Made by a program: the position numbers and the translations under genes
In this document: positions 4,150-23,016 of the stretch, one piece after another
Position numbering within the stretch: the first letter of the stretch is position 1
Layout: every line of letters begins with the position of its first letter
The notes under the pieces: model-generated
The model's input: the letters and a program-made list of their open reading frames with translations, nothing else
Database searches by the model: none
Told to the model about the DNA's origin: nothing
Virus record (IMG/VR): IMGVR_UViG_3300028558_000099
Coordinates: 1-23,169 of that record
Source: a virus
DNA length: 23,169 nt
Strand: one strand, 5' to 3'

Positions 4150-4371
4150 ATGAACAATCAACAACAAATAGACGAATTGGTGAAGCTCGTAAATGAAGTG
4201 CCCACTCAACGCCTGGGACAGTTGATCGTCAACGCATTTTGCATGTCTGAACGCTACGACTGTGCAAATCTTGATTTAGACTTGTTCTACATCACTGACG
4301 AAAAGTTGCTTGAGCTGATCACAAATTTTATCTCCGTCACGCGCGAACGAAATGCAGTTCACACTCGATAA
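4150..4371 (+). CDS. Hypothetical protein (73 aa) upstream of the polymerase
   Basis: A 73-residue acidic helical protein starting MNNQQQIDELVKLVNEVP. No domain is recognised. It starts one base after the preceding stop, and its 3' end overlaps the polymerase start by 20 bases, which suggests translational coupling. A role in replication is possible from context only. Confidence 0.65.
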   Translation: MNNQQQIDELVKLVNEVPTQRLGQLIVNAFCMSERYDCANLDLDLFYITDEKLLELITNFISVTRERNAVHTR

Positions 4372-5551
4372 ATCAACGATAGGCACTGAAAAACACCTAT
4401 CGTGTGATGATAATAAACTGATGTGGGTTGACGAAGTTCAGCCTCCATCTTGGCATGTCACGAATGGGAATGTAATCGGAAAAAATTTCAACGACTTGGT
4501 GAACATCTCGTTGAAAGAGCTTGATTTTCTGCCCCCGAAGAAGTACGTTGACATGATGAAGACGTTCTCAAACGTCAACTTGTCGTGCGTTCCCTGGCAA
4601 CGGGTGATGACGAAGCGAGATCACGCTGCCTTCGTGAAGGCACTTCTTAACAAGATTGAATGTTTCCTTTGCAATGCTCCCACGAATTACTACGATGGAA
4701 CGTGGGTAAAAGCGAGTGCAGTCTTTAACAACTTGCAACGTGCGAAGATAAACAAAAGGCTCTTGAAAGAACTGTTCGACAAGAACAAAGGAAACATTTC
4801 GGCATTACAAACGTTTGTGCCACGTGACGACGGGTTTGCGAACGAAGTCGTGTACAACAGGTTTGCAACCGAAACTGGAAGACTTACAGTAAAGTCTGGG
4901 CCGCACATACTTGAGCTCAAGCGTGAACACAGGAGCATAATCGAGAGCATTCACGGTGACGACGGTGAAATATGCATCATTGACTTCAACGCATTAGAAC
5001 CTCGAGTCGTGTTGTACGAAGCAAACAAGTCTTGTGAAAATAAAGACATCTACTCGCACGTTGCAAACGAACACAAGTTGACGCGCACTGAAGCAAAGGC
5101 GGGCACAATATGCACAATGTACGGCGCAGGAACAAACTTGATAGTTGAGACTTTACAATGCGATGAAGCGCGAGCCGATGAAATCAGCAACGCTATCAGA
5201 AAGTACTACGAGATACGCGCGCTTACAAACAGGATCAAGACACAATTTATAAAGGAGGGCACGCTGCAAACGCGCTTCGGAAGGCCTTTGAAAATTGACG
5301 ATCCGAGAAGCAGCGTTTTGCTCAATCACTTTGTGCAAGGCACGGGGTGTGACGTCGTTTTGTTGGCATTCTCAAACATCACCGAAGAAATGAAGACGAA
5401 AACGCCAAATTGTCGCCCACTCTTCATGATTCATGATGCGTTGGTGATTGACGCATTGAAGAGCGAGCTGCCAAAACTCGACGAGCTACTGACTGTGAAA
5501 GTGAGTAGCTACGTGCAGAGGTTTTATTTGAAACGAACTAAGATTTATTAA
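4352..5551 (+). CDS. Family A DNA polymerase, polymerase domain only
   Basis: A 399-residue protein with the family A (Pol I type) motifs in order: TGRL at 175-178; motif A IIDFNALEPRV (D211, E216); motif B/O-helix R245-x3-K249...Y257-G258; N325 and Q329 in NHFVQGTGCD; motif C MIHDALVID (H361, D362). It would add nucleotides to a DNA primer. Three features are odd. The length covers only the palm/fingers/thumb, with no room for a 3'-5' exonuclease domain. The residue at the Pol I Phe762 position is Ile253, in TICTMYG instead of NFGxxYG. Motif C reads HDA instead of HDE. The catalytic aspartates remain, so it may be active. It is last in a plus-strand cluster, ending one base from a convergent gene. 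The nuclease part could be encoded elsewhere. Confidence 0.85.
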   Translation: MQFTLDKSTIGTEKHLSCDDNKLMWVDEVQPPSWHVTNGNVIGKNFNDLVNISLKELDFLPPKKYVDMMKTFSNVNLSCVPWQRVMTKRDHAAFVKALLNKIECFLCNAPTNYYDGTWVKASAVFNNLQRAKINKRLLKELFDKNKGNISALQTFVPRDDGFANEVVYNRFATETGRLTVKSGPHILELKREHRSIIESIHGDDGEICIIDFNALEPRVVLYEANKSCENKDIYSHVANEHKLTRTEAKAGTICTMYGAGTNLIVETLQCDEARADEISNAIRKYYEIRALTNRIKTQFIKEGTLQTRFGRPLKIDDPRSSVLLNHFVQGTGCDVVLLAFSNITEEMKTKTPNCRPLFMIHDALVIDALKSELPKLDELLTVKVSSYVQRFYLKRTKIY

Positions 5552-5552
5552 A

Positions 5553-5867
5553 TCAATAACCACAACCCATAAGTTCATATAACTTTTTGACAGACGCTTC
5601 AACTTCTCGTGCAACGTCATCGTACGTTGTGTCTTCTTCGTCATCAACGATGAAGTCAATACCTTCAATCGCGCCTGACAATGTTTTCTTTATTTCTCGT
5701 AACATTTTTAGCGAACTGTTGACGCATTTAACAATCACGTAATTTGGATCTGCTTCACTTGGCTTTTTGACGTTAGTTCCCACCTCTTCACCATATGCAC
5801 CGATTGATGGCTTGTTGAACTCTTCTCGAATTATTTGTTGTAGTTGTTTCTTTGTTAAAGTCGCCAT
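5553..5867 (-). CDS. Small tagged protein 1 (N-terminal LTxxQLxxIIREE peptide)
   Basis: A 104-residue protein beginning MATLTKKQLQQIIREEF, one of five proteins here with this N-terminal peptide; I13-R14-E15 gives the I-x-E signature. After the tag come a Gly/Pro-rich linker and an acidic helical domain with a DDEEDTTYDD stretch, ending ELMGCGY. The start is ATG 5867 with GAGGAAA upstream. The body resembles nothing I know. Its role is unknown; packaging into the virion is one idea based on the tag. Its end meets the polymerase gene tail to tail with a one-base gap. Confidence 0.7.
   Translation of the reverse strand: MATLTKKQLQQIIREEFNKPSIGAYGEEVGTNVKKPSEADPNYVIVKCVNSSLKMLREIKKTLSGAIEGIDFIVDDEEDTTYDDVAREVEASVKKLYELMGCGY
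5821..5852. repeat. 32-bp perfect direct repeat, copy 1
   Basis: The sequence tcttctcgaattatttgttg... at 5821-5852 is identical to 6043-6074. It encodes the KKQLQQIIREE part of the N-terminal tag in two neighbouring genes. Nucleotide identity inside otherwise different genes points to recent duplication or recombination of the tag. Confidence 0.9.
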
Positions 5868-5918
5868 GATTTAAATATTTCCTCAACGTTGCTAATGAAA
5901 AAAAATGTCAACGTGAGA

Positions 5919-6089
5919 CTATTTAAGTTGAGATTGAATCCAATCTGCAGCATCATACAGCCCATTTTGATTTGCAAACTTTATTAAATCTTTAAGTTGA
6001 TCAGTCACAGATCTCTGATCTGGCATTTTTGTGTTTGTTATTTCTTCTCGAATTATTTGTTGTAGTTGTTTCTTGGTTAGATTTGCCAT
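5919..6089 (-). CDS. Small tagged protein 2 (56 aa)
   Basis: A short gene found by reading the minus strand: ATG 6089 to TAG at 5919. It begins MANLTKKQLQQIIREEI, nearly identical to the start of its downstream neighbour, then continues with an unrelated 39-residue tail ending YDAADWIQSQLK. About a third of the protein is the shared tag, so it is close to a minimal tagged protein. AAAGAAAGA lies 10-18 bases upstream as a weak ribosome site. The start is three bases after the stop of the upstream gene. Function unknown. Confidence 0.65.
   Translation of the reverse strand: MANLTKKQLQQIIREEITNTKMPDQRSVTDQLKDLIKFANQNGLYDAADWIQSQLK
6043..6074. repeat. 32-bp perfect direct repeat, copy 2
   Basis: Second copy of the repeat at 5821-5852, 222 bp away in the same orientation, lying in the tag-coding part of the 56-residue gene. 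Identity ends at 6075 (g versus t). Confidence 0.9.
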
Positions 6090-6092
6090 TAT

Positions 6093-6362
6093 TCAATATC
6101 TTTCTTTGCTCTCGTATCTATGCTTTGCATATTTGTGAATATATCTACAAAGCTCTTCACCACGCTTTGCATGTCGCTTCATCCACGTGACGTTGTTTCG
6201 ACCTGCGCTATCATGCGTGTAAGCGTATGCCCAACCGGAGCTAAAGTAAACTTTGATCCAATCAGCACCCGTCTCATAGTCAACAACGCTCGACGTGCCA
6301 GTCAAGTTCTTGTAGAGTTCTTCGTTGATGGCTTTACGCAAAGCAGAAATTGTCAGTATCAC
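6093..6362 (-). CDS. Small tagged protein 3 (89 aa)
   Basis: I place the start at GTG 6362, giving MILTISALRKAINEEL; an upstream TTG at 6368 is also open. The GTG start aligns this N-terminus with the tag on four other proteins (M-x-L-T-x3-L-R-x2-I-x-E-E), which is the main reason for choosing it. The body has aromatic strands (WIKVYFSSGWAYAY) and ends in a basic helix with several His and Arg. No family is recognised. It starts nine bases after the stop of the preceding gene. Confidence 0.65.
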   Translation of the reverse strand: MILTISALRKAINEELYKNLTGTSSVVDYETGADWIKVYFSSGWAYAYTHDSAGRNNVTWMKRHAKRGEELCRYIHKYAKHRYESKERY

Positions 6363-6371
6363 AATCAATAA

Positions 6372-6581
6372 CTATTCATCATCTTCACACACAAAGTCGT
6401 AATCATTCTTTTCTCGTTCAAACTCGTAGTATCGTCCTTCTTCGCGAGAGAGGTTAACCAATTCATCAATCGTATTTGCAAATTCTTCGCTTGTCGCAGT
6501 TTTTGCGTATTCATGCAGGTCTTCACCAATGCGAGATGCAAAAACATAAATTGTATCATATTTTGAAAAATCAAATTTCAT
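6372..6581 (-). CDS. Hypothetical acidic protein (69 aa)
   Basis: The start is ATG 6581, overlapping the end of the upstream gene by 11 bases (ATGAAATTTGA). The frame is open further upstream to 6650, but that part lies inside the neighbour. The protein starts MKFDFSKYDTIYVFASRIG and ends in the very acidic NDYDFVCEDDE. A competing ORF in another frame (6365-6574) has poor composition and is rejected. No domain is recognised. Confidence 0.65.
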   Translation of the reverse strand: MKFDFSKYDTIYVFASRIGEDLHEYAKTATSEEFANTIDELVNLSREEGRYYEFEREKNDYDFVCEDDE

Positions 6582-6753
6582 AACGTATCGCTTTCTTACA
6601 CATTTCCCACATGTCTTCATCAAAGTGAGGATATCGTGCAAACAATGCAATGAACACGTTCAACACTGTGTGATCGTCTGGACGATTATTAATATGCGAC
6701 AACACATATTTCTTACCAGTGGCCTCGTCACAATCGTCAAGGAATTCACGCAC
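6571..6753 (-). CDS. Hypothetical protein (60 aa)
   Basis: A 60-residue ORF starting at GTG 6753, beginning MREFLDDCDEATGKKYV and ending KKAIRYEI. It is acidic, helical and not recognised. The start lies in a 15-bp palindrome (ACGTAATAATTACGT, 6752-6766), with no purine-rich ribosome site. Its stop overlaps the start of the next gene, suggesting coupled translation. Confidence 0.6.
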   Translation of the reverse strand: MREFLDDCDEATGKKYVLSHINNRPDDHTVLNVFIALFARYPHFDEDMWEMCKKAIRYEI

Positions 6754-6834
6754 GTAATAATTACGTCGTCGGGAGACAAAATCTAAGACTTGCCATCAGG
6801 ATCAAGTTGCTCCGACCACCACACAATTCAGGGT

Positions 6835-7209
6835 TCAGATAAAGGGCTCTGGTTCGTTTTCGAATTCTTGCTCGACAACCGGCTTCATACGAAGCTTGCG
6901 AGCTTGCAAAATGTTATACGCAGTCTGATATAATTTCATCTTTTGTTCAATCTTCGCAAGGACGACCTTCTGCGCCGTTTCAAGGGTTTCACACAAAAAA
7001 CTACACTCATTGATGAAGCCCTTTCCGAAATCCGCATTTACTATTACTGAGACTTCCCATCCATCACCACGTGGGTTTGCAAACACTTTAAAACATTTGC
7101 CAAAATCGCCATACACGACTGTGTATGGGAAATAACCATATTCACGCAGCTCTTCACTCGTCAACCTGTGAGCTGGCGCGCTAAATAATTCAACTATGTC
7201 ATTTTTCAT
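6835..7209 (-). CDS. Hypothetical protein (124 aa)
   Basis: A 124-residue protein starting at ATG 7209 with AAGGAAA upstream. The first 80 residues look alpha/beta (FPYTVVYGDFGKCFKVFANP, then WEVSVIVNADFGKGF). The C-terminus is a long basic helix followed by an acidic tail (EQEFENEPEPFI). I do not recognise a family. About 80 bases follow before the next gene; I see no gene or clear terminator there. The roughly 150 bases upstream, to the HNH gene, also hold no supported gene. Confidence 0.65.
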   Translation of the reverse strand: MKNDIVELFSAPAHRLTSEELREYGYFPYTVVYGDFGKCFKVFANPRGDGWEVSVIVNADFGKGFINECSFLCETLETAQKVVLAKIEQKMKLYQTAYNILQARKLRMKPVVEQEFENEPEPFI

Positions 7210-7362
7210 TGTGTTTCCTTCTGTTCACGTTGAGGTCATGCGAGAGTGCATGTCACAACGCATGAAGAGATAGTAAACAACGGGAGAAGAGAATTACACT
7301 TTCTCGTACACGAACAACGAGTTTGTGCAGCCTGTCACACGATTGTGCGTGTTGCTTTTCTG

Positions 7363-8250
7363 TCAAGCCACGAGATTTGTCTTGCGTAACTTTGTAAAAT
7401 TATACGAAGGATGTTCTTTTTTGTGACAATCAATACAAATTACTTCTCCTGAAACATTATTATTTATGTGATAATCAATTACGTTCTCCATAATTTCTTT
7501 CTTTATTTCAAAAGTATCAATCGTTTTAATCGTATGTTCTGGATTATCTAACAAGAACATAGCAACACACTCGTGAATTATGTCTGCCATTCGTTTTTCA
7601 TTGTGATGAATGCTCAAGTTGTTACCCATTCCACACCGTTGACACGTAAAATTATTTTTATGAAATTTAGGTAATTTCCATTCTTCATAAAAACGTTTAT
7701 GTGTACTAACTAACGCGCTGATTGACGATGTTCCGCCTTTCCATTGTGAGTGATCTGACCCAACAAGTGTTGGTATTGTACCATCGAGGCGATTGCTTCG
7801 CATTCGTTCAGCACGACGGTCAAGTTCGTCTTCATTTAAACGTATTGTTTCACTTCCACGAATGCCATACAATGCAACACGTTCATCTGTTTTTTTCGTC
7901 AACCCAACGTTCCAAGCAACTGTTTCACCGCTCTCAAATTTTCTACGTTTTGTTTCACTGCTCTTTTTTCTTACGTTATCAGGACGCTTTGTGCCAAACG
8001 TTGGATTTCCTTTACCACGAGCATTGTGACCATGTACAAACTTCATGTATCCACCATTTGTACTCCAAAATTTTGGTATTTCTCCGCATCCACAAGCACA
8101 CGTTGGTATTATTCCATGAAGAATTACTTCATCATACGTTTGTTTCGCATTAAACCCATGTTGTTTTCTACAATGATTTTTAATAGATCCAAACTTTTCA
8201 CATTGAAAATCACATTCAGTACACTGATACATAAAATAAAAATTAAACAT
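7363..8250 (-). CDS. HNH homing endonuclease with zinc-finger DNA-binding modules
   Basis: A 295-residue protein that likely cuts DNA to spread its own gene. Domains in order: C2H2-type finger (C10, C13, H26, H31); a CACGCG motif (51-56) followed by GGY...F..GH; a NUMOD3-like segment (GNPTFGTKRPDNVRKK); a WNVGLTKKTDERV module (113-125); and a C-terminal HNH domain with C203-x2-C206, H215-H216 and a final CIDCHKKEH. The DNA is A/T-rich compared with the structural genes. It lies just downstream of the tail-tube gene, typical for free-standing homing endonucleases. The start may instead be the ATG at 8232 (MYQCTEC). Confidence 0.85.
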   Translation of the reverse strand: MFNFYFMYQCTECDFQCEKFGSIKNHCRKQHGFNAKQTYDEVILHGIIPTCACGCGEIPKFWSTNGGYMKFVHGHNARGKGNPTFGTKRPDNVRKKSSETKRRKFESGETVAWNVGLTKKTDERVALYGIRGSETIRLNEDELDRRAERMRSNRLDGTIPTLVGSDHSQWKGGTSSISALVSTHKRFYEEWKLPKFHKNNFTCQRCGMGNNLSIHHNEKRMADIIHECVAMFLLDNPEHTIKTIDTFEIKKEIMENVIDYHINNNVSGEVICIDCHKKEHPSYNFTKLRKTNLVA

Positions 8251-8283
8251 TTACATACATGTGTACAAATTTTAAACACCAAA

Positions 8284-8301
8284 CGCCCGTAAAAACGAGC
8301 G
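8284..8301 (-). terminator. Hairpin downstream of the tail-tube gene
   Basis: Read on the minus strand, CGCTCGT-TTTT-ACGGGCG forms a 7-bp stem with one U-G wobble and a four-base loop, then TTTGGTGTTT. The wobble pairs only in minus-strand RNA. It lies 30 bases after the tube stop and before the HNH gene. The U-tract is weak, so it may be a partial terminator or an mRNA 3'-end hairpin. Confidence 0.45.
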
Positions 8302-8330
8302 AATGATGAATTTTTGGAGATTATAATGAA

Positions 8331-8822
8331 TTAATATTGTAAAACAGCGATGTCAAATCTAAGTGTAACACTAATATCCAACAATCCTGCATCTTCGTAC
8401 GTTAATTCTCCCATATCAACGTCACCTTGAAGCCAGGCACCTTTTATATCATAGAGGGAAATTACTGTCCCGACAGGATCCAGTAATTTCAACTGCACAT
8501 CACGCTTATAAAAGTCTGCATATCCTGCACGGCCTGAAACTGGATCAAAACACGTTCGCATCCATTCTGTGATCTGCTGCGCGCCCGATGGAGCAATTGC
8601 GCTGTGCAACGTGACAGGCATCGGAACGGGCTTCGTTTTACCAGCAACGTAACGAGTAGAATTCATGAACGGAATTTCAACTTCATCAGTGGTGTACGAA
8701 GGAACTTTTGTTGACGAAATAAGAAAACTATCTATACCTTCGATAGCGAGGATAAAGCGATTTTTCCTCGCGGGTTCAAATTGGTTGCACAACATTGATG
8801 TTACGTCTAAAGTCTCGGCCAT
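8331..8822 (-). CDS. Tail tube protein, T4 gp19-like
   Basis: A 163-residue protein, the usual length for the T4 gp19 family of contractile-tail tube subunits, which stack as hexamers inside the sheath. Typical features are NRFILAIEGIDSFLISSTKV at about 19-38, TRYVAGKTKPVPMPVTL in the middle, IAPSGAQQITEWMR, GRAGYADFYKRDVQLKLLDP, and a C-terminal ISVTLRFDIAVLQY. The start is ATG 8822 with GGAGA nine bases upstream; the frame is open further upstream but without family sequence. The gene is flanked on both sides by homing endonuclease genes. Confidence 0.92.
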   Translation of the reverse strand: MAETLDVTSMLCNQFEPARKNRFILAIEGIDSFLISSTKVPSYTTDEVEIPFMNSTRYVAGKTKPVPMPVTLHSAIAPSGAQQITEWMRTCFDPVSGRAGYADFYKRDVQLKLLDPVGTVISLYDIKGAWLQGDVDMGELTYEDAGLLDISVTLRFDIAVLQY

Positions 8823-8897
8823 GTGTATCTCCAATCGATAAATATTATGACATTGTGAACATTGAACATTAATGTGATATATTCTTAATGAAGATAT
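8823..8897. promoter_or_regulatory. Divergent intergenic region between tube and plus-strand endonuclease
   Basis: These 75 bases separate two divergent starts and should hold signals for both. On the minus side, ATATTTATCG lies about 23 bases before the tube ATG, a sequence also found before other structural genes. On the plus side, TATATT lies near 8877. The middle has a tandem TGAACAT repeat and CATTAATG. No promoter can be assigned firmly. Confidence 0.3.
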
Positions 8898-10670
8898 ATG
8901 TCGCTCACAAAGAAAAAAAATGATATTGATTTTGATGAAGTGACAAAAATGTGGACACGCGTTTGCCCAAATTGTAACAACGTTGTTTTTCACAAAAATA
9001 AGAATAAATGTATTCTTGGTAAAAAATACAATAAACTTTGTACAAAGTGTAACAGAAAATCTCTTGGAAAAAAGAATGCTAAGACTGATGCGTGTCCAAT
9101 TTGTAACGTTTTAATTCGAATTACACATGCAGATCAAAGTGAACTAAAATTGCATGCAGAAAGTCATCAATTGACATCTGAAGAACTTTGGTCAATAAAA
9201 TTTAGTAAACAACCGACATATTGCAAATGTGGATGTGGTGAAAAACCTGAATGGTTGGGATGGTGGGGAGGGTACAACGAGTTTGTTTTTGGACATCAAT
9301 CGAAACTCGCACAAAAAGGTAATAGAGGAAAAAATTGGCGAGAAGATCCCTACTGGAAAGGTAAAACAAAAGAGAATGATGAAGAGGTTGCAAATCGTGG
9401 AAATGCAACGTCAATTGGACGTAAACTCGCATTTGACGAAGGACGAATGACGTGTTGGTCGAAGGGATTAACAAAAGAAAATAATGAGAGTTTAGCAAGA
9501 CAATCTGAAGATTTAAAACGCATGTATGAACTTGGCGAAATTGTTCCATGGGCAGCTGGACTGAACAAAGAAAACAGTGAAAAAGTCCGCAACATGGCAG
9601 AAAAAATATCAAAAACTCATCGCGATATTAATCTTCGAAAACAACTTGACGATCAAAAGAAACGATCATTAGACAACGTCACATCAATGATCGAACAACG
9701 TAACATATTAAAATACGTGTCAGGATATGAAAACTACGTCAATGCAGGGTCAAGTCTTGTTGTACATTGTACAAAATGCGATCAAACATATGAAGAACGT
9801 CTTTACAAAATGTTTAATGGAATTTGTAGAAAATGTTCTCCGACTTCGCAACCTCAATTTGACATCGACGTCTTCGTAAGATCTCTTGGATTCACAACAA
9901 TCTCAAACAGTCGTAGCATAATACCGCCACAAGAAATTGATATCTTTGTTCCTGAAAAGAACTTCGGCATTGAGTTCAATGGTTTATATTGGCATAACGA
10001 GTGTGGCAAAACAAATTCATATCACGATGATAAGTCACAAGCAGCAAAACACGTAGGAATAAATTTATTGCACATATTCAACGACGAGTGGAATTTTAAA
10101 CAACCAATCGTTAGATCAATGATCGCTGCAAAGCTTGGTGTGTCACAAAACAATGTGGGAGCGCGGAAATGTGAAATTATTGAGCTTGATTATAAAACAA
10201 AAAAATCTTTTTTCAATGAAAATCATATAGACGGTGACGTACAATCAACATGTGCTTATGGGCTCATATTTGAAAATAATGTTGTAGCCGCGCTTAGTCT
10301 GCGTAAGCCGCGTCAAAAGAAATACGATGGTTATTATGAAGTTGCTCGATTTGCTCAAAAGGTTGATACTCATGTCGCAGGTGGGTTAAGTAAATTAACG
10401 AAACACGCACTCAAACAAATTAATTCTCCGCTCATGACGTACGTTGACACGAGAATGGGTTCACTATCACATGCATGGGAAAAATCAGGATGGTCAAAAA
10501 TTGACGAAACGGTCACACGTTGGTGGTGGACTGATTGTCACAATCGCTTTGATCGCTTCAAATACAAAGCTGACAAATCTCACGGACTAACCGAAAAGCA
10601 AGTCGCCGAAGAAGCCGGCGTCGTCAAAATATACGGGTGCAGAAATTTAGTGTATGAGATCAAACCATGA
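8898..10670 (+). CDS. Large homing endonuclease, VSR/EDxHD-like nuclease with zinc modules
   Basis: A 590-residue protein. Domains in order: a four-Cys zinc ribbon (C23, C26, C49, C52); a C2H2 finger (C66, C69, H86, H90); a CKCGCG motif (109-114) followed by GGYNEFVFGH; three tandem W-x-x-G-x-x-K-E-N-x-E modules at about 152-168, 186-202 and 217-233; a second four-Cys ribbon (C291, C294, C310, C313); and a nuclease-like domain with EID (346-348), GIEFNGLYWHNE (357-368) and LLHIFNDEW (390-398). The last resembles VSR-like phage homing endonucleases of the EDxHD type. It diverges from the tube gene and is A/T-rich, suggesting transfer. The exact nuclease class is from remembered motifs. Confidence 0.8.
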   Translation: MSLTKKKNDIDFDEVTKMWTRVCPNCNNVVFHKNKNKCILGKKYNKLCTKCNRKSLGKKNAKTDACPICNVLIRITHADQSELKLHAESHQLTSEELWSIKFSKQPTYCKCGCGEKPEWLGWWGGYNEFVFGHQSKLAQKGNRGKNWREDPYWKGKTKENDEEVANRGNATSIGRKLAFDEGRMTCWSKGLTKENNESLARQSEDLKRMYELGEIVPWAAGLNKENSEKVRNMAEKISKTHRDINLRKQLDDQKKRSLDNVTSMIEQRNILKYVSGYENYVNAGSSLVVHCTKCDQTYEERLYKMFNGICRKCSPTSQPQFDIDVFVRSLGFTTISNSRSIIPPQEIDIFVPEKNFGIEFNGLYWHNECGKTNSYHDDKSQAAKHVGINLLHIFNDEWNFKQPIVRSMIAAKLGVSQNNVGARKCEIIELDYKTKKSFFNENHIDGDVQSTCAYGLIFENNVVAALSLRKPRQKKYDGYYEVARFAQKVDTHVAGGLSKLTKHALKQINSPLMTYVDTRMGSLSHAWEKSGWSKIDETVTRWWWTDCHNRFDRFKYKADKSHGLTEKQVAEEAGVVKIYGCRNLVYEIKP

Positions 10671-10984
10671 TTGACATCAGACACGTGATCAACGAAAACA
10701 TTGAGCTTCTCGAAGAACTTGAGCTCAAATGTTCCAACGTTGAACAGTGGCGTTCTCTCGCAAAGCCCATCGCAGACTGCATCATCAAAATGCGAGACGA
10801 ACTCAACGCCCAACACGGCATTTACACCGTGCAAATCAACGAGATGTTATTTTTTTCAACGTGCTCAAATATGTGCAAAAATTGTAACATGTTATCAAGT
10901 GAAACTGCGTTTCACATGTGGTTATTTAGAACAAGAATGACAACGTCAATGCGTTGTCCGTTCTGCTTGTACCCGTATCAGTGA
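10667..10984 (+). CDS. Hypothetical protein with CxxC pairs (105 aa)
   Basis: This ORF starts in a 4-bp ATGA overlap with the endonuclease stop. The N-terminal half is helical and acidic (NENIELLEELELK); the C-terminal half has CKNC and CPFC pairs that could form a small zinc site, ending CLYPYQ. No family is recognised. It may have moved together with the endonuclease. Its last seven bases overlap the convergent minus-strand gene. Confidence 0.55.
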   Translation: MIDIRHVINENIELLEELELKCSNVEQWRSLAKPIADCIIKMRDELNAQHGIYTVQINEMLFFSTCSNMCKNCNMLSSETAFHMWLFRTRMTTSMRCPFCLYPYQ

Positions 10985-11235
10985 ACCCGCCTCTTTGGCA
11001 TCGGCACCACATACACTTCGTACTCGTCTTCGCCTACCTTGACGCGCTTTGGCTCGGCATTCATGTCGTCCTCGTCTGCGAGCATCAGTCCTTGTTTCTG
11101 AAGCTCTTTTGACGCAAGCGTGTCCCAGTCATCGTCAGCGAAGTCCCATGACATGTCACCTCTTACGAAGTCTGCTTCTTTTTCTTCAACTGCTTCACGA
11201 ATAGTTTCGCGAAGTTGCTTTACTGTTAGTTTCAT
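10978..11235 (-). CDS. Small tagged protein 4 (85 aa)
   Basis: The start is ATG 11235 in an ATGA overlap with the upstream gene; a GTG at 11244 is also open but would place WI before the tag. The protein begins MKLTVKQLRETIREAVEE, the shared peptide, with I12-R13-E14. The rest is very acidic (WDFADDDWDT, LADEDD), then KRVKVGEDEYEVYVVPMPKR, which looks like a beta-hairpin. No family is recognised. The upstream neighbour carries the same tag. Confidence 0.7.
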   Translation of the reverse strand: MKLTVKQLRETIREAVEEKEADFVRGDMSWDFADDDWDTLASKELQKQGLMLADEDDMNAEPKRVKVGEDEYEVYVVPMPKRRVH

Positions 11236-11552
11236 AATCCACACTTTCGTTCAACGCTCTCGCAAGCGTCTACAATTTGTACACGTATTTCGTCGAGCAA
11301 CCCGTTGCGCGTTAAATTTACAACCGTAACAGGTGACATGCTCCTGCTTCCCACCTCAACGTTTGCTTCTTTGAGGCGCTCTTGACACTTTTTTGACCAC
11401 ACAATGCACAACTCACGAAGCGCCTGTTCTACTTCTGGATCAAAGGCGACGCTGTATAAAAGACTGTATGGCTCTTCATTAGTGTCAAGCTCATTCTGTG
11501 AAATCTCTTCTTTGATGATATTACGTAGCTGCTGCATTGAGGTGAGTTTCAT
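11232..11552 (-). CDS. Small tagged protein 5 (106 aa)
   Basis: Begins MKLTSMQQLRNIIKEEIS, the shared tag with one extra residue before Q-L-R; I13-K14-E15 gives I-x-E. The body is helical (FDPEVEQALRELCIVWSKK) with a later strand/helix region (VTVVNLTRNGLLDEIRVQIV). Function unknown. The start is ATG 11552, with GAAAGA about 10 bases upstream and ATATTTAT farther upstream. Its 3' end overlaps the next tagged gene by 4 bp, so the two are probably translated together. Confidence 0.7.
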   Translation of the reverse strand: MKLTSMQQLRNIIKEEISQNELDTNEEPYSLLYSVAFDPEVEQALRELCIVWSKKCQERLKEANVEVGSRSMSPVTVVNLTRNGLLDEIRVQIVDACESVERKCGL

Positions 11553-11644: not shown

Positions 11645-14551
11645 TTATACACCAGAACCTGGATTTGACACCACGAAGTCAAGACTGACAAATTCAATTG
11701 CACGTAGTGGAACGATGTAGATTTTCCCACGGATACTGTTGTTAAGAATATCGGCCTGTGTAGTCGTCGTCGTGTCTATCTGCACCTTGTACTTCTCGAT
11801 GCCCGATAGCTTCTGAACGCGTTGCAGAATTGGCGTGACAGCGTTTTGGAACCTCGCCAACGTCGCCTCTCTGTTTGGCTCAAACATTATCGTCTGAGCA
11901 ACGTCTCGCACTTGGCGGCGAAGGTTGATCAACAATCGCCTGACGTTCACCCTGTCAAGTGCACTTGCTGAAGCCTGTAGCGTCTTCTGACCCCACACGA
12001 CCACGCCACCTGTGGGAGCAGTTCCGCCCGTGCCATTACCTGGGAAAGCAACAAGCGGGTTGACGTTGACATTGTAGAGAGCGTCCATGTCGTTCTTAGA
12101 TAACTTCACTCTCGTCTCAAGTGTCGTCTGAAGTGAACCTCGAGTCATGCCCGCAGGAGCAAACCACGGTTGAGCCAACTTATCGTTCAATGCCAATGCA
12201 CCTAGAACAGCGACCGACGGCGGTACGACCACGTTTGTCTTCGTTGTTGGGTCAGTCATCACGACGTCAGGGAAATATGCCGCGGCAAATGAACTGTCTG
12301 CAAGCCTGCCCGCAAACTGATCTACTGACGCGTTCACGACGGGTTGTTGATCGTCTCCGACGACGTTGTCGCCATTTCCATCTATTTGTTCAATGTCAAT
12401 GATGGCGAGGGCATCAAATCTCTCTTCAACTGCCGCAATCAACGTGTCTGTGACAGCAGGGTGGCGAATGCCAGGCACAAGCAATAGTTGCACGTCGACT
12501 TCTGTCGTTGATTGCATCAGTTGAATTGCTTTTCTGTACGCCATCACGTTGGGACCATTGTTTCTGCCTCGAGAAACGTTGTCCATGTCTGCAACGACAG
12601 CAGCATTATTTATCTCCGCTTCGTCTTTGTCAAAGATGTTCGTGCCATCGAACCCACCCTGCATCAACGTCGTGAACTTGATGAAGCGCTTGTTTGCTGA
12701 CGTCAAGTCACTGACGGCAAGGCCTCGAGTTTTTGTTGTGTCGTTGGCTGCAATTACACCGTTTGCGTTTCGCACGTACGTTGCAGAAGCCCACTGACTT
12801 GGATCTGCATTGCCAGCTGAACCGGTGACAATCTTCACATTTTCGAGAGAAAATTCATTGTTACAGAAAGTGTCATCACCGATAACAACAGGAGTGGTGG
12901 AAAACTCAGGAAAGTACTTTGCCCAAGAATTCAACGACGCGTTCTTCAATGTTGTGCCGTTTGGCATGTCAAGCGAAGCCTGATGCTCGAACTGAACGCC
13001 CCAATAAAGCTGTGGATTTACCAACGCCTTTGCACCTGAACCATTTGTTATGTTCTGTCGCAGGGGTAGTGGCGGTTGAATTGCGCCTGTCACAAAGTTA
13101 CAAAGAGTGCCGTCGAGCGATCCTGACGTTGTGACCAAGTGTAACGGTGAAGCAAAGCCAAACGGCAATGCAGTCGGTTCGATTGTGCCATTCTGAACAT
13201 CGTCTGCCACTTCAACGCGAACCAAGTTTGACGCATTTTCGAAGTCACCGTCGATTGCAAGCTTTTGTTCGCTGTCAGAACGATCAAAGTCAAAGTACGT
13301 GTGTAAGTCGCCAATGACGTTTGAAATGTAACGCGGCGAAGAAGGATCCAACGATAGGCCACGCCACTGTTCAAGGTAGCTAACGTTTCCGTCGGTGTCA
13401 TTCCAATCTCGAATTGTTACGTCGAACGTTCCGAATGGCGTTGTATTGTCTGAAGACGCAGCGATATTTTCAACTGAAATCTTATAGAGAGTTGAAATGT
13501 TTGCACCGCTATCGAGTGCCCAAATTCTAAACAGATTTTGCGTAACTCCGCCAAAGTGTTGAGACACTATCCAAGGCGAACGTGCGTTAGAGAAGCGATC
13601 AGTGAACGCTTCATAATTTGGCGCAGTTGCAATCGATGAACCGGTGACCAAGAATGCTAATGTTGAGGTCGTCGTTATGCCAGTTCCATTTACACCTGCT
13701 TGTGACGTTAATATGTCATAGTTTGCGTATAAAAAGTGACCTGTTTGTTGTAGCTTGTACGGATCAGTGTTGAACACGTTTGCAAAGTAATTTGATGCGT
13801 TTGGATCAAACGATGCGGTGATGACGTTTGGATACGAAGGATCGGTTCCAGGAATGCCATTCAACAGCAACCTGAAATCTTGTTTTACTGTCCCGTTGCT
13901 CAGTGTCGTCACAGTTCCAACAGACATGCCATGCGCTGTCGCATCAGCGGCGGCAACTACACTCGATGGTGGATTTGCGTTGTTGTACTCATCATTTGCG
14001 AGCCGCAAGATCACACCGTTTGCTGCCATCACAACGCCACGAACAACGGGTACTGACGGCGCGTTTATTGACGCAGAAGAAAATAATGACGAACCTGCAG
14101 ACGCTGACATTAGCGCGCCAAGGAAGTACGTGCGACCATGAGGGCCACCTGCAATCGCGTAAGGATTGTACACCAAGTTACCGTATGCAGGATCGCTTAT
14201 CGGCAATGACGTGTTTGGTTCATTTTCTCCGACAGTAAATCCAGCATTTGTCACTGATCCATCGGGATTACGCGTCTTGCCATCGCCCACGCCTAAAACT
14301 CGAACGGCTGTCAACGAGCTTTGATTTCGCAGCCACTCATTTGCAGCGAGAGGCATGAACTTTTTGCCATCGCTTGCTCCAAATTTTGCCGAATAATCAC
14401 TGAACACGCCAACAGTTATTGGAGCAAAAGCAGGACCCTTTGGCGACGTTCCAATAACGCCGGCAGGAATGCCTGTGGGTTTTTGTACCACTGGGCCCGA
14501 TATGTCAATTTCTGTTGCAGTTACGCCGGCTGAACCGTAGGTGATCGTCAT
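11645..14551 (-). CDS. Tail sheath protein, T4 gp18-like, copy 1
   Basis: A 968-residue sheath subunit. The N-terminus has the family pattern GVTATEIDISGPVVQ, then GIPAGVIGTSPKGPAFAPI and AANEWLRNQSSLTAVRVLG. The C-terminal core has WFAPAGMTRG (about 805-815), VVVWGQKTLQ, the RVNVRRLLINLRRQV helix, FEPN, and a final IEFVSLDFVVSNPG. These match the contractile-tail sheath family. T4 gp18 is 659 residues, so this protein is about 300 longer, with the extra length in the middle. The start is ATG 14551 with GAGGAA upstream. A diverged paralogue lies directly upstream. Confidence 0.92.
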   Translation of the reverse strand: MTITYGSAGVTATEIDISGPVVQKPTGIPAGVIGTSPKGPAFAPITVGVFSDYSAKFGASDGKKFMPLAANEWLRNQSSLTAVRVLGVGDGKTRNPDGSVTNAGFTVGENEPNTSLPISDPAYGNLVYNPYAIAGGPHGRTYFLGALMSASAGSSLFSSASINAPSVPVVRGVVMAANGVILRLANDEYNNANPPSSVVAAADATAHGMSVGTVTTLSNGTVKQDFRLLLNGIPGTDPSYPNVITASFDPNASNYFANVFNTDPYKLQQTGHFLYANYDILTSQAGVNGTGITTTSTLAFLVTGSSIATAPNYEAFTDRFSNARSPWIVSQHFGGVTQNLFRIWALDSGANISTLYKISVENIAASSDNTTPFGTFDVTIRDWNDTDGNVSYLEQWRGLSLDPSSPRYISNVIGDLHTYFDFDRSDSEQKLAIDGDFENASNLVRVEVADDVQNGTIEPTALPFGFASPLHLVTTSGSLDGTLCNFVTGAIQPPLPLRQNITNGSGAKALVNPQLYWGVQFEHQASLDMPNGTTLKNASLNSWAKYFPEFSTTPVVIGDDTFCNNEFSLENVKIVTGSAGNADPSQWASATYVRNANGVIAANDTTKTRGLAVSDLTSANKRFIKFTTLMQGGFDGTNIFDKDEAEINNAAVVADMDNVSRGRNNGPNVMAYRKAIQLMQSTTEVDVQLLLVPGIRHPAVTDTLIAAVEERFDALAIIDIEQIDGNGDNVVGDDQQPVVNASVDQFAGRLADSSFAAAYFPDVVMTDPTTKTNVVVPPSVAVLGALALNDKLAQPWFAPAGMTRGSLQTTLETRVKLSKNDMDALYNVNVNPLVAFPGNGTGGTAPTGGVVVWGQKTLQASASALDRVNVRRLLINLRRQVRDVAQTIMFEPNREATLARFQNAVTPILQRVQKLSGIEKYKVQIDTTTTTQADILNNSIRGKIYIVPLRAIEFVSLDFVVSNPGSGV

Positions 14552-14665: not shown

Positions 14666-17641
14666 TTATACGAATTCGACTCCACTGTTCGAAATTATAA
14701 AATCAATTCCTATATATTCAACGGATTTTGTGGGTGTCAAAACTATCCGCCCATTCAACTTGTTTGCAGCCGCGTCTGCAGCCGAATTATTAGTGCTGTC
14801 CATGATGACATTGAAGTCATCAAGCCCTGATTGAACTTGAATTAAACCAAGCTGCTCATTTGCAGACTTCACGAACAAGTCTCTCGTTGCCTGAGTGTTT
14901 TGCTCAAACGTGATGCCATTCGCTATTCCAATTATGATGCGCTTGACTTCAAGTAACAACCTGCGCACGTTTACGCGGTTGAGCGATGTCTTTGCGACCT
15001 GCAACGTCTTCTGACCATAGATAACAAACCCTGCACGTGGGAACGTTGCGATCGGGTTGATACGACTGTTGCTCAGCCTGTCTCTGTCGGCAGTGTTCAA
15101 GCGAACGACCACAGACTTGACGTCATCGAGCGCAGCCCTATTGAAACCAGCGGGAGCAAACCAAGGATAAGCAACTCTATCATTGAAGCCAATTGCACCG
15201 AGCGCAGTCACCGACGCCGGAACTCTTACGCGACGCTTGTTGACTGTGTCATCAATTGAAACATCAGGGAAATACGTACCAACGTAGTTGTTATCAATTG
15301 CGCGCGCATCAAAGATGTTTGCAGTCTTATTCACTGATGGTTTATTGATAGTATCAAACAAACGATTTTGGTTATCATCGTACGACGGAATGTCCATGAC
15401 GTAAAACGCAAGACCATACTCCTTTACTTTTTGTGCAGCATAGTCAGTGATGAACGAGTCACGAATTCCAGGAATTGCCAACACGTTGACGTTCACTGTC
15501 ATCTTGTCAGACATGATGTCAATCGCTTTTTTATACGAAGCGACTGTGCTATTCTTTTGTCCAACGCCACCCATGTTAGACGCAAGTCCAGGCGACACGT
15601 AATTTTGTTCTGCTCCGCCAAGCGCGTCGAATGATGAAATTTTGTCATTCATCCTGACTGCGTCTAAGTCCAAGAAGTTCACGCCGTCGAACCCACCGTA
15701 CATGAACGTTGAGAACTTTGCATAGTGTGAAAATTGATTGAACGTCGCAGCAGATCCAGACTGTAACAAGGTTGCAAATGTTAGTCGCTTTATACTTGAA
15801 TTCTGATCAACAATCGTGTAATCAGTCGAGTTCACAGTTGCATTGCGTATATACGCAGCTTCACGCATGTGATCAGTGACTGACGACGTGAGCGCCAATG
15901 TCGATGTTACTGACAGTGCAACCTTTGCAAGCGTGAACTTGTTGTCATTGAACGTGTCTGCGCCTGAACCTGTGACCAACGTGTCAAGCTGCGCAATGCC
16001 TAAGAATTTCGTGTACGACGAAATCAACGCGTTGGGCTCTGACGACAGGTTTGAATTTGTTGGATTATCGTTTCGTTCAAACTTGACGCCCCAACAATAG
16101 TTTGGATTTGTCACCTCTGTTGGACCAGGTTGTCCAACGAACGCGGGTTGTGACGACGGAACTTCGCCACGGGTGACCTTAAACCTAAACGGAACGGGTG
16201 GTAAAATAGATCCCGTTATTGCGCTTGCCGTTCCCAAAATTCCTGCGAGCCGCGGGACGTTCGTGTCATGGTCTGCAAGTGCGTCGTTTGTCTTCAATAA
16301 TTGAACGCCTCTAAAACCAAACGGAAGAATTGTTTGTGGTAGAATTGCACGATCTACTTCTTCTGCAATTTGCACTCTAACGTACTTTGACACGTTTGCG
16401 TACTTACCTGAAGACACAACGCGCTTTTCACTGTCTTCTACGTCAAAGTTGAAGAATACATTACGATCGCCAATCAATTTTCCAACGTAATGATCGCTCT
16501 GAGGATCAAGCGTGCATCCTGGATACGACTCCAGAACGTTCATGTTCGTGTCTGTGTCATTAAACGCACGTACTTGAACAGTAAATGAACCAAACTTGTT
16601 CGTAGGATCGAGCGAAGCCTGTAGGTTTGTTATTGTTATCTTTGTCTGCGTGTTTGCGTACTCGCCGTCGTCCATTGCTTCAAAGTAGAACAAATCGTAC
16701 TCTTTCGTGCCAAAGGGTTGCGAGATGAACATTGGCGTCTTCGCAGTCTTGTAACGTGACTTGAACGATCCGAACGCGTTCAAACAATTTCGTCCTGAAG
16801 CTGTGTTATTTGTTGAACCCGCAAGTATTGCTACATACGATGACGACAATATTTCAGCGTCAACTGCAAAATCAGCATACAAAAGGTGTTGTCGTGAGAC
16901 AAATTGACGTGGATCTGTGTTCAAAACTTTTCCAAAGTAATTTTGATCGTCAGGATTGAATGAAGCGCTGTAAATTGCAATTCCGGAATTTCCATCTGTG
17001 CTCACGTTTAAGTTGCTGCTCGAAACAATGAGTTTGAATTGTCCACCACTATCAGAAACGGCCGCTATGTCGTTTGGACCTGCACCAACAAAAGCGTTGA
17101 CGCTTGACGACGCTATGTGTTGCACAGCAATGCGAGCGCCTGTTGCAAGCATGATAGCACCACGCACGACGTTGATTGGCTTTGAGACATTAAAACTGTC
17201 ATTATCGTCAAACATCGGCATTCCTGTTGTTTCTTGTGAAGAAACATTGCCTTGTTGAGCCAAAAATTGAACCATTCCTGTATGTCGAGTTGGAATTGGC
17301 TGCAGCGCGTCGGGAAGCACGCTAACTCCTGCGTTCAGCGTTTCACCGTTTCCGTCTTCCATGTCTGATCCTGCGCCAAGAACCCTAAGATAGGTTAACG
17401 CGGTTCGATTATTGAGCCACTCGTTTGCAGCGTAAGTTCCGGGCTTGTAAATGTCCAATCCACCAAACGTGTTCGTGAAATCACCTAAATTTCCAACAAC
17501 AACGGGCACAAACGCTGGGCCCTTATTTGCAGTTCCAATAACACCAGCAGGCACGCCGATTGGGCCGGTGGGTGCGGGTTGTGATTGATCAATCTCTCGT
17601 TCAAGGATGCCAGGTGAATTGAGTATTTGTTCGGACGCCAT
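14666..17641 (-). CDS. Tail sheath protein, T4 gp18-like, copy 2
   Basis: A 991-residue sheath paralogue. I start it at ATG 17641 (MASEQILNSPGILEREIDQS), which has AGGAGA upstream and begins with the usual sheath N-terminus; the frame is open 25 codons further, but that stretch is promoter-like sequence. Family features: GVPAGVIGTANKGPAFVPVV, AANEWLNNRTALTYLRVLGAG, WFAPAGFNRA, YGQKTLQ, LNRVNVRRLLLEVKR, and a final VEYIGIDFIISNSG. It shares the domain order of copy 1 but differs at many positions even in the core, so the duplication looks old. Both copies look intact. It is encoded first, directly after the gp15-like gene. Confidence 0.92.
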   Translation of the reverse strand: MASEQILNSPGILEREIDQSQPAPTGPIGVPAGVIGTANKGPAFVPVVVGNLGDFTNTFGGLDIYKPGTYAANEWLNNRTALTYLRVLGAGSDMEDGNGETLNAGVSVLPDALQPIPTRHTGMVQFLAQQGNVSSQETTGMPMFDDNDSFNVSKPINVVRGAIMLATGARIAVQHIASSSVNAFVGAGPNDIAAVSDSGGQFKLIVSSSNLNVSTDGNSGIAIYSASFNPDDQNYFGKVLNTDPRQFVSRQHLLYADFAVDAEILSSSYVAILAGSTNNTASGRNCLNAFGSFKSRYKTAKTPMFISQPFGTKEYDLFYFEAMDDGEYANTQTKITITNLQASLDPTNKFGSFTVQVRAFNDTDTNMNVLESYPGCTLDPQSDHYVGKLIGDRNVFFNFDVEDSEKRVVSSGKYANVSKYVRVQIAEEVDRAILPQTILPFGFRGVQLLKTNDALADHDTNVPRLAGILGTASAITGSILPPVPFRFKVTRGEVPSSQPAFVGQPGPTEVTNPNYCWGVKFERNDNPTNSNLSSEPNALISSYTKFLGIAQLDTLVTGSGADTFNDNKFTLAKVALSVTSTLALTSSVTDHMREAAYIRNATVNSTDYTIVDQNSSIKRLTFATLLQSGSAATFNQFSHYAKFSTFMYGGFDGVNFLDLDAVRMNDKISSFDALGGAEQNYVSPGLASNMGGVGQKNSTVASYKKAIDIMSDKMTVNVNVLAIPGIRDSFITDYAAQKVKEYGLAFYVMDIPSYDDNQNRLFDTINKPSVNKTANIFDARAIDNNYVGTYFPDVSIDDTVNKRRVRVPASVTALGAIGFNDRVAYPWFAPAGFNRAALDDVKSVVVRLNTADRDRLSNSRINPIATFPRAGFVIYGQKTLQVAKTSLNRVNVRRLLLEVKRIIIGIANGITFEQNTQATRDLFVKSANEQLGLIQVQSGLDDFNVIMDSTNNSAADAAANKLNGRIVLTPTKSVEYIGIDFIISNSGVEFV

Positions 17642-17712
17642 AGAAAAAAGTCTCCTGTTTTCTAAATATACATCACCAACGCGCAGTTGAGTTACTGTAT
17701 ATTTATTAGATT

Positions 17713-19473: not shown

Positions 19474-19851
19474 ATGTCAAACGTTGAACAACATTTACAA
19501 GAGAAAACTACATTTGAAAAAACAACGTCTGCACGTTCACCTGAGTGGCACAAGGTCGAACATGACTTTGTGTCAAAAAACAAGACGTGTGTGGCATGTG
19601 GAGGAACAGAAAAGCTACAAGTTCACCACATGCATCCGTTCCACTTACATCCCGAGCTTGAACTTGACGAGAACAACTTGATCACGCTGTGCATGCAGCA
19701 CGAAAAGGAGTGTCACTTGTTCATTGGCCACGGTGATAGCTGGCGCGCTTATAATCCAAACGTGTTAAAAGACGCCGCGATTGTACTTGCTGATCAGACA
19801 AAGCGAGATGAGATTATAACAGAAGTAAAGAAGAACAAATTGCTCGTTTAG
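19474..19851 (+). CDS. Small HNH endonuclease
   Basis: A 125-residue HNH protein: SPEWHKVEHDFV (22-33) before the domain, C39-x2-C42, HH at 51-52, N68 in DENNLITLC, C73, H76 and H81. This is a near-complete HNH fold with a zinc site, probably a free-standing homing endonuclease. Its ATG is only 15 bases from the divergent start of the gp15-like gene, and its stop overlaps by four bases the 3' end of the broken gene at 19848-20053. Base composition is close to its neighbours, unlike the other endonucleases here. A packaging-associated HNH nuclease is possible but less likely. Confidence 0.8.
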   Translation: MSNVEQHLQEKTTFEKTTSARSPEWHKVEHDFVSKNKTCVACGGTEKLQVHHMHPFHLHPELELDENNLITLCMQHEKECHLFIGHGDSWRAYNPNVLKDAAIVLADQTKRDEIITEVKKNKLLV

Positions 19852-21322: not shown

Positions 21323-22165
21323 ATGAAAAAAACGTTACCTAAGAATTATAAATTTCTCGTCTACAAACACACATGTACGATAACGAATAAATCATATATC
21401 GGATACACATCAAAAACAATGGAAAAACGTTGGGAAGAACATCTTACATGTGCTGCCACTGGTAAACGTTGGAAAATTTCAATTGCACTGTGTGAACATG
21501 GCATTGATGATTGGGAACACACTATTCTTGGACATTTCGAAACAAAAGAAGACGCCGCAAAATATGAAATAGAAATGATTGCAAAATATGACACTCATCG
21601 TAACGGTTACAATTCATCGCCAGGAGGATTTGGTGGTAGCACGTTTAAAGGTGGTAAACACACACCACAATCAATTGCACATTTCGTAGAAGCACAAAAT
21701 CGACCTGAACAAAAATTGTTGCTTCACAATATACACGTAGGAATACCAAAATCACCTGAACATTGTGCCGCGATGCGCGAAGGTGCAAAACATCGTCCAC
21801 CAATTTCAGAAGAAACACGTCAAAATTTAAGCGATGCACAACTAATTGCGCAAAATCGTCCTGAAGTAAAACAAGCAAAAAGTGAAAGACAAAAAGAACT
21901 TTGTAAAAATCCTGAGTATCAAGAAAAACGCGTTATGACTTTACAAATAACAAATAAAACGCCTGAAACAAAAGCAAAACGCAAAAAAGCATCAGATGGT
22001 GAAAATAACGGGATGTTTGGTAAAACTCATTCAGACGAAGCAAAACAAAAAATGTCAAAAATACGAATGCGTGTTACGCATTTACGTTGGTTTGCAACAA
22101 GACTTGCAAATGCGTTACAATTAAAGAATTTCACAATAAACGTAAGAACAAATAAAGATTACTAA
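21323..22165 (+). CDS. GIY-YIG homing endonuclease
   Basis: A 280-residue protein with an N-terminal GIY-YIG nuclease domain: LVY at 12-14, YIG at 25-27 in NKSYIGYTSKTMEKRWEEH, R36 and H40, then the catalytic-Glu region KYEIEMIAKY (80-89) and NGYNSSPGG. The C-terminal half has NUMOD3-like DNA-binding segments: GIPKSPEHCAAMREG, RPPISEETRQNLSDAQ and GENNGMFGKTHSDEAKQK. It is A/T-rich compared with neighbours and on the opposite strand, between the neck gene and the peptidase gene. This matches free-standing phage homing endonucleases of the T4 Seg type. The domain assignment is firm; the target site is unknown. Confidence 0.9.
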   Translation: MKKTLPKNYKFLVYKHTCTITNKSYIGYTSKTMEKRWEEHLTCAATGKRWKISIALCEHGIDDWEHTILGHFETKEDAAKYEIEMIAKYDTHRNGYNSSPGGFGGSTFKGGKHTPQSIAHFVEAQNRPEQKLLLHNIHVGIPKSPEHCAAMREGAKHRPPISEETRQNLSDAQLIAQNRPEVKQAKSERQKELCKNPEYQEKRVMTLQITNKTPETKAKRKKASDGENNGMFGKTHSDEAKQKMSKIRMRVTHLRWFATRLANALQLKNFTINVRTNKDY

Positions 22166-22196: not shown

Positions 22197-22215
22197 AAGT
22201 GAATATTTTTCACTT
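22197..22215. terminator. Possible bidirectional A/T-rich hairpin between convergent genes
   Basis: AAGTGAA-TATTT-TTCACTT forms a 7-bp stem with a five-base loop. It lies between the convergent GIY-YIG and peptidase genes and overlaps the peptidase stop codon. The stem is weak and neither side has a long T-run. Confidence 0.3.
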
Positions 22216-23016
22216 CGCGACAGTGATTGTCCAACAATCGCTCACCATGTCACTTGTCATGATTGAGTATGGGAGCCAGAAATAACCTCCCTCTTTCTTA
22301 CACCAATCTTTGCCCCATGAATTCCTCACAAGAAAAGCTTTCTTGATATCAGAATATCCCACGACGACCATGCAATGTCCTCCAACTTCCTCTTCGTTCT
22401 TCACGTTCGGAAATGGCATCATGCACGTAGTCTCTGTCCAATCACCCTTTTCGAAGCTCTCGTACAACGTGATACCAAAGACAATACACGCATTCGCGTC
22501 TAAACACGCTTTCATGCTGTTCAACGACTTGTTGTCTATGCGATAGTACTGAATTGCGACGTGTTGTGACGCCTCATTGTAACAGGCGATCGGAGGTTTA
22601 ATTTTGAACTTGTTCTCAACGTACGGCCACTTCACCTCATCACACACACCTTGTTTTGCAACGGATTTGATGCCATCTCTAATTTGAGCACCATCGTCAG
22701 AATTAACTGTGTGTTCAATTTCTCGCTCATTGTAGTATATGAACAATCGCGATGGAATGAAAACTTTTAACTTCTCCATTGCATAAACAAAAGCAAGAAG
22801 CGCTGAAATTCCATTTCCTGTACATGACCCAATTTGACCTTGGTCAAACACTTCGGTAAATTTAGATCGCAAGTCAACAGTCTTCGGTGCCGTTAACCCA
22901 AGCTTCACTCCGATGTTGCGAGCGAACATTGCAACGTGTTCTGGAAGCGTTGCAGATTGTATTAAATCTCGTGGATCATGTGTATCTCGAATGCACCCGT
23001 ACTTGTGATTGGCCAT
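22210..23016 (-). CDS. Papain-like (C1 family) cysteine peptidase
   Basis: A 268-residue protein with C1-type active-site motifs: VDLRSKFTEVFDQGQIGSCT (oxyanion Gln59, catalytic Cys65), EEVGGHCMVVVGYSD (His214) and LVRNSWGKDW (Asn232). It would hydrolyse peptide bonds. There is no obvious signal peptide or long propeptide; the mature-domain motif begins at about residue 46. Its place just upstream of neck genes is unusual, because prohead proteases are normally of other (serine) families. It could process virion proteins, act on host proteins during infection, or degrade surface peptides. The start ATG 23016 is preceded by TAGTTATTATTAAC, with no Shine-Dalgarno. Confidence 0.85.
   Translation of the reverse strand: MANHKYGCIRDTHDPRDLIQSATLPEHVAMFARNIGVKLGLTAPKTVDLRSKFTEVFDQGQIGSCTGNGISALLAFVYAMEKLKVFIPSRLFIYYNEREIEHTVNSDDGAQIRDGIKSVAKQGVCDEVKWPYVENKFKIKPPIACYNEASQHVAIQYYRIDNKSLNSMKACLDANACIVFGITLYESFEKGDWTETTCMMPFPNVKNEEEVGGHCMVVVGYSDIKKAFLVRNSWGKDWCKKEGGYFWLPYSIMTSDMVSDCWTITVAK

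Follow-up and report, generated by a model that had tools for sequence, protein, structure and literature searches.

A large group of uncultured T4-like phages places the same short N-terminal peptide on about 200 small proteins that are otherwise unrelated; it is most likely a removable label for packing into the head and delivery with the DNA. The peptide (hereafter the tag) was identified in an IMG/VR fragment of 23,169 bp (IMGVR_UViG_3300028558_000099), which is the whole stretch of DNA analysed here and is referred to below as the window. Judged from its sequence, the window is a piece of the genome of a T4-like myophage.

The Window and Its Five Tagged Genes

Five ORFs of the minus strand begin with the tag, and all were found at the positions given in the first-pass annotation. 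These are gene 1 (5553..5867, 104 aa; tag MATLTKKQLQQIIREE at 5820-5867), gene 2 (5919..6089, 56 aa; tag MANLTKKQLQQIIREE at 6042-6089), gene 3 (6093..6362, 89 aa; tag MILTISALRKAINEE at 6318-6362), whose start codon is GTG and not ATG, gene 4 (10978..11235, 85 aa; tag MKLTVKQLRETIREA at 11191-11235) and gene 5 (11232..11552, 106 aa; tag MKLTSMQQLRNIIKEE at 11505-11552). Their common core reads MKLTKxQLxxIIKEE. The same annotation had noted an I-x-E motif in each tag (IRE, IRE, INE, IRE and IKE, in gene order) and a lack of resemblance between the rest of the five proteins. Both points hold: the mature parts are unrelated, and what genes 1 and 2 have in common is a run of 32 identical bases of tag DNA. 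A position-specific scan of the window returned five N-terminal matches and no internal one, and no tag match was obtained in 60 block shuffles of the window. A helix is predicted over residues 5-22 of the gene 5 product in a structure model of low confidence (the models of proteins 3 and 5 have a mean pLDDT of 56-60).

The tail module of the window comprises two tail sheath genes (11645..14551 and 14666-17647, both on the minus strand), a gp19-like tube gene (8331..8807, minus strand; PHROG 4542 E=7e-19, PF06841 E=0.0018), and genes for a T4 baseplate protein and a gp15-like protein. By its tube gene the window belongs to a T4-like tail module. Tagged genes 4 and 5 are located between the tube gene and the first sheath gene, where relatives carry tagged genes as well. 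The sheath genes are long, divergent and in tandem, and double sheath genes recur in relatives. A DNA polymerase A family protein of 399 aa is encoded on the plus strand (4352-5551), its gene ending 2 bp from tagged gene 1 on the opposite strand. HNH and GIY-YIG/NUMOD3 endonuclease genes (19474-19851 and 21323-22165, plus strand) are found among the tail genes; two larger ORFs (7363-8250, minus strand; 8898-10670, plus strand) are homing endonuclease candidates by eye, without a Pfam match. The tail region also contains a gene for a papain-family (C1) cysteine protease (22210-23016, minus strand).

Distribution of the Tag and Diversity of the Cargo

A check for the tag beyond the window, proposed in the first-pass annotation, was carried out with the degenerate pattern MKLTxxQLxxIIxEE, which recurs in at least 120 viral stretches of IMG/VR. 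In bacterial and archaeal genomes totalling 257 Gb the pattern matched one contig only; this contig is metagenome-assembled, also encodes a RadA-like ATPase and, judged by eye, is probably viral in origin. The tag is restricted to viruses. When three tag peptides were compared with cultured phages by tblastn, no match was significant (one hit at E=10). Regions of Mel-JY01, immuto and RM378 were considered as tag carriers and rejected, having no clear N-terminal tag. Literature text searches for tag strings returned nothing, and no paper describing such a tag was found.

A scan of complete loci identified 293 tagged proteins that fall into 205 clusters unrelated to each other after the tag. Their alignment consensus is MKLTKxQLxxIIKEExxxxxxE, with no consensus beyond. 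The restriction to N-termini is observed directly: away from start codons the core gave 22 matches in 1.35 million scan windows, several of them being second tags. Large contigs carry from 2 to 20 tagged genes each. One 10-kb tandem array (G002 / L137:28-10280) contains eighteen of them; it is located at one end of its 185-kb contig, and further tagged genes may follow beyond. Two consecutive tags precede the mature part in L048:4230-4916 and L026:6560-7246, as if tags were stackable. The L098 prohead protease seemed to have a tag at its C-terminus, but this match stems from an overlapping reading frame and was discarded.

Hardly any of the cargo proteins contain a known domain. Only two of 141 have a Pfam match and four a PHROGs match, while PADLOC matched none of the cargo proteins. 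A PAP2 phosphatase domain on one tagged protein (alignment A1, E=7e-9) is a rare case of recognisable cargo. Among the five cargo proteins of the window, protein 3 stands out as recognisable: its mature part matches PHROG 17428 (E=5e-15) and PHROG 24656, a virion structural protein (E=2e-7). Its domain is also present within phiKZ gp303 and 201phi2-1 gp455; gp455 is on record as a virion protein identified by mass spectrometry. Cleavage mapping in phiKZ located cuts in gp94, gp177 and gp303, with enrichment of an LSxE motif (PMC10449902); a validation of gp303 injection is not reported. Mel-JY01 encodes the protein 3 domain nearly alone and untagged. The domain is therefore not virion-only; it is portable and is delivered or expressed in different ways.

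A Protease-Type Motif at the End of the Tag

The I-x-E of the tag had been proposed to be a protease-type end, a proposal strengthened by a second [LI]-x-E that closes the conserved stretch in most families. Since the families were chosen solely on the core up to EE, the residues that follow provide an independent test. Among 145 families, [LIVM]xE peaks at positions +6 (22%) and +7 (37%) after the core, as compared to ~2% per position further downstream. It occurs within 14 residues after the core in 79.8% of 198 families, against 16–21% in windows taken further along these proteins; 500 shuffles gave 47% at most. The spacing depends on the lineage: it is +12 in G004 rather than +6/7, and the conserved stretch still ends in GL[IL]xE. 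In the window's own lineage the following [LIVM]xE is found in 22 of 32 families, compared with 3–4 downstream. A site within the tag or following it is present in all 204 families scored (204/204), and the six families that lack the in-tag site all have the following one. The five tags of the window have only the in-tag I-x-E; a second L-x-E site is absent from them, except for a V-E-E in gene 4.

Linkage to Head Genes, Prohead Protease and Capsid

A T4-like terminase is encoded by 55 of the tag-selected loci listed; others encode portal, prohead protease or MCP. Of 16 smaller tagged contigs, nine encode the protease, and these same nine encode gp23. The terminase-MCP interval contains one or more tagged genes in nine of ten large contigs (rotation of tag sets, P=1e-5). 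Most tagged genes (83 of 94) are outside the head block, several of these being in the tail module, and the 11 inside, compared to 5.7 expected, do not reach significance alone (P=0.11). The linkage to head genes is thus significant only as per-genome presence, not as the number of tags inside the head block.

Although the window covers only part of a genome, head genes are present in its close relative G018 (76–93% DNA identity over aligned segments), where portal, protease, tagged gene and MCP follow each other in a row. Similar tagged genes of ~80 codons are located between protease and MCP in G018, G014, G015 and G003. The first-pass annotation read the tagged proteins as possible internal virion proteins and proposed, as one check, to find the prohead protease of the phage and the cleavage site of its scaffold and capsid. 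A T4-like prohead protease is indeed present in tagged phages and L-[KR]-E precedes the mature capsid N-arm; the location of tagged genes within the head gene block lends further support to that reading. In all MCPs, L[KR]E and then a small residue directly precede the part that aligns with the mature N-arm of T4 gp23 (ALRE/SNSL in G018, which belongs to the window's own group). No tag-like sequence was noticed at the N-termini of scaffold, protease or MCP. The prohead proteases of L003-L122 have a conserved DLLTE at about residue 20–25, a possible autocleavage site. In Mel-JY01, an ORF between the prohead protease and capsid genes (L123:10453-11619) is ADP-ribosyltransferase-like by eye and would parallel T4 Alt.

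Duplication and Turnover of Tag DNA

Tag DNA is duplicated within genomes. In the window, 32 bp of gene 1 (5821..5852, minus strand) are identical to 6043..6074 of gene 2 (minus strand), synonymous sites included, and the sequences diverge afterwards. In every contig with at least four tags, codons for the same residue match between the tags of one genome more often than predicted from codon usage (278 matches versus 184 predicted in G004, 219 versus 149 in G008). A caveat is that genes may use codons differently near their starts. Turnover is observed between close relatives. G019 lacks gene 1 due to an indel of ~300 bp exactly around it, 39 bp replacing positions 5551-5885 of the window. Gene 2 of G019 is frameshifted just after the tag. 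Its gene 4 ortholog retains the tag, followed by an insertion, and in its gene 5 most differences fall in the linker that comes after the tag.

Proposed Function of the Tag and Alternative Explanations

We consider it probable that the tag is a capsid-targeting propeptide that docks on the prohead core and is cleaved, the cargo staying in the head to be ejected with the DNA. In this model the shared peptide would fold into an amphipathic helix, by which each small protein attaches to the prohead core while the head is being assembled. Cleavage by the T4-type prohead protease would follow, behind an [LI]-x-E that is either the one within the tag or, for most relatives, one located 3–12 residues further on. 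The mature cargo would remain in the head with the DNA before being ejected into the host, where it may play a counter-defence role. Core docking and this role of the cargo are inferred; packaging, cleavage and injection are likewise only inferred because there is no virion proteomics for any tagged phage. What is demonstrated concerns sequence, gene position and co-occurrence, and the protein 3 domain in 201phi2-1 gp455 is no more than an indirect indication of a place inside the head. Counting against the propeptide reading are the missing second L-x-E site in the window's tags (gene 4 with its V-E-E excepted), the many tagged genes outside the head block, the untagged copy of the protein 3 domain in Mel-JY01, and the absence of any noticed tag-like N-terminus on scaffold, protease or MCP.

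An unremoved helix that docks the proteins on another shared partner (tail, baseplate, polymerase or other phage complex) would also account for a common N-terminus, for the position of tagged genes of the window's lineage, repeatedly between sheath and tube, for the distance of most tags from head genes and for the helical prediction, itself of low confidence. Such a helix does not need an [LI]xE end with lineage-dependent spacing (mostly +6/7, +12 in G004), and it leaves unexplained why a conserved tagged gene is a neighbour of the prohead protease gene; we regard it as unlikely. That conserved gene, between the protease and capsid genes, is in turn an argument for the tagged proteins being parts of the prohead core or scaffold, similar to T4 gp67/gp68 and degraded or kept in the head rather than delivered as effectors, as are the small size and lack of a recognisable domain of many of them. 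The ~200 unrelated cargo families, the up to 20 tagged genes per contig and the gain and loss among close relatives are accessory-like and make a core role for the tagged proteins in general very doubtful; such a role probably applies to no tagged gene but the conserved one. A tag that is short and built of common helix residues could in principle be a chance similarity or simply the way in which small phage proteins commonly begin. This explanation, to which we give practically no credit, is already refuted by the absence of matches in shuffles, by the rarity of internal matches, several of which are true second tags, and by the single match in cellular genomes.

A wider proposal, for and against which we see the case as evenly balanced, is that this T4-like branch of uncultured phages has a self-duplicating "tag plus start" DNA cassette that recruits arbitrary ORFs into the virion. 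The cassette would constitute an evolvable delivery system with ~200 cargo families in this sample, whose mature domains would mostly be undescribed injected counter-defence or takeover proteins. If the capsid-targeting function of the tag is correct, a short pattern would reveal which unknown phage proteins of uncultured viruses enter the head and are injected, for which the recognition of T-even ip genes by their signal is an analogous precedent. It would also yield ~200 undescribed candidate families of injected proteins with defined starts of the mature forms, and a new address label to load proteins into phage heads. The origin of internal proteins would become testable, as neighbouring genes share duplicated tag DNA while their cargo differs.

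Comparison with Known Systems

Head and ejection proteins of SPN3US and phiKZ resemble what is proposed for the tagged proteins in that their propeptides are cut by the prohead protease after x-E motifs, and the domain of protein 3 in gp303 and gp455 is a further likeness to phiKZ and 201phi2-1. Those propeptides are mostly longer than 100 residues with a protease motif S/A/G-x-E (PMC5694885; PMC10449902) and, unlike the tag, are not one shared short peptide. A system of this type, defined by a long propeptide and S/A/G-x-E, does not fit tags of 15 to ~27 aa that end in L/I-x-E. The small T4 proteins gp67 and gp68, encoded beside the prohead protease, have a possible counterpart, judged by gene position and size, in the conserved tagged gene only.

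The internal proteins of T4 share nothing except their leader (PMC12373910; PMC9026906). The leader brings them into the head; they are injected and act as inhibitors of type IV restriction enzymes (PMC12373910; PMC9026906; PMC3012670). The tag differs from the T4 CTS in its sequence, in its greater length (15 to ~27 aa versus 10–19 in T4), in the second cleavage-type site often found in tagged proteins and in having no significant match in cultured phages; there are also up to 20 tagged genes per contig and ~200 families, as compared to a handful of genes in T4. Only K2 and I-x-E are visibly common to the tag and the T4 peptide quoted in the first-pass annotation, which are too short to align meaningfully. 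Formal membership of the T4 CTS type cannot be claimed because removal of the peptide and packaging are only inferred and the T4 peptide cannot be shown to be homologous. Several traits of that type are found together here. As in IPI-III and Alt of T4, unrelated small proteins have a common short N-terminal peptide that ends in [I/L]-x-E (in the window, the in-tag I-x-E only). Tagged phages also have a T4-like prohead protease and gp23, as well as a variable gene content; a gp21-type protease and a gp23-type capsid with an L-x-E maturation site are encoded in the same genome, for the window by way of G018. By analogy, the best fit to these features is a tag system that would work like the T4 CTS system.
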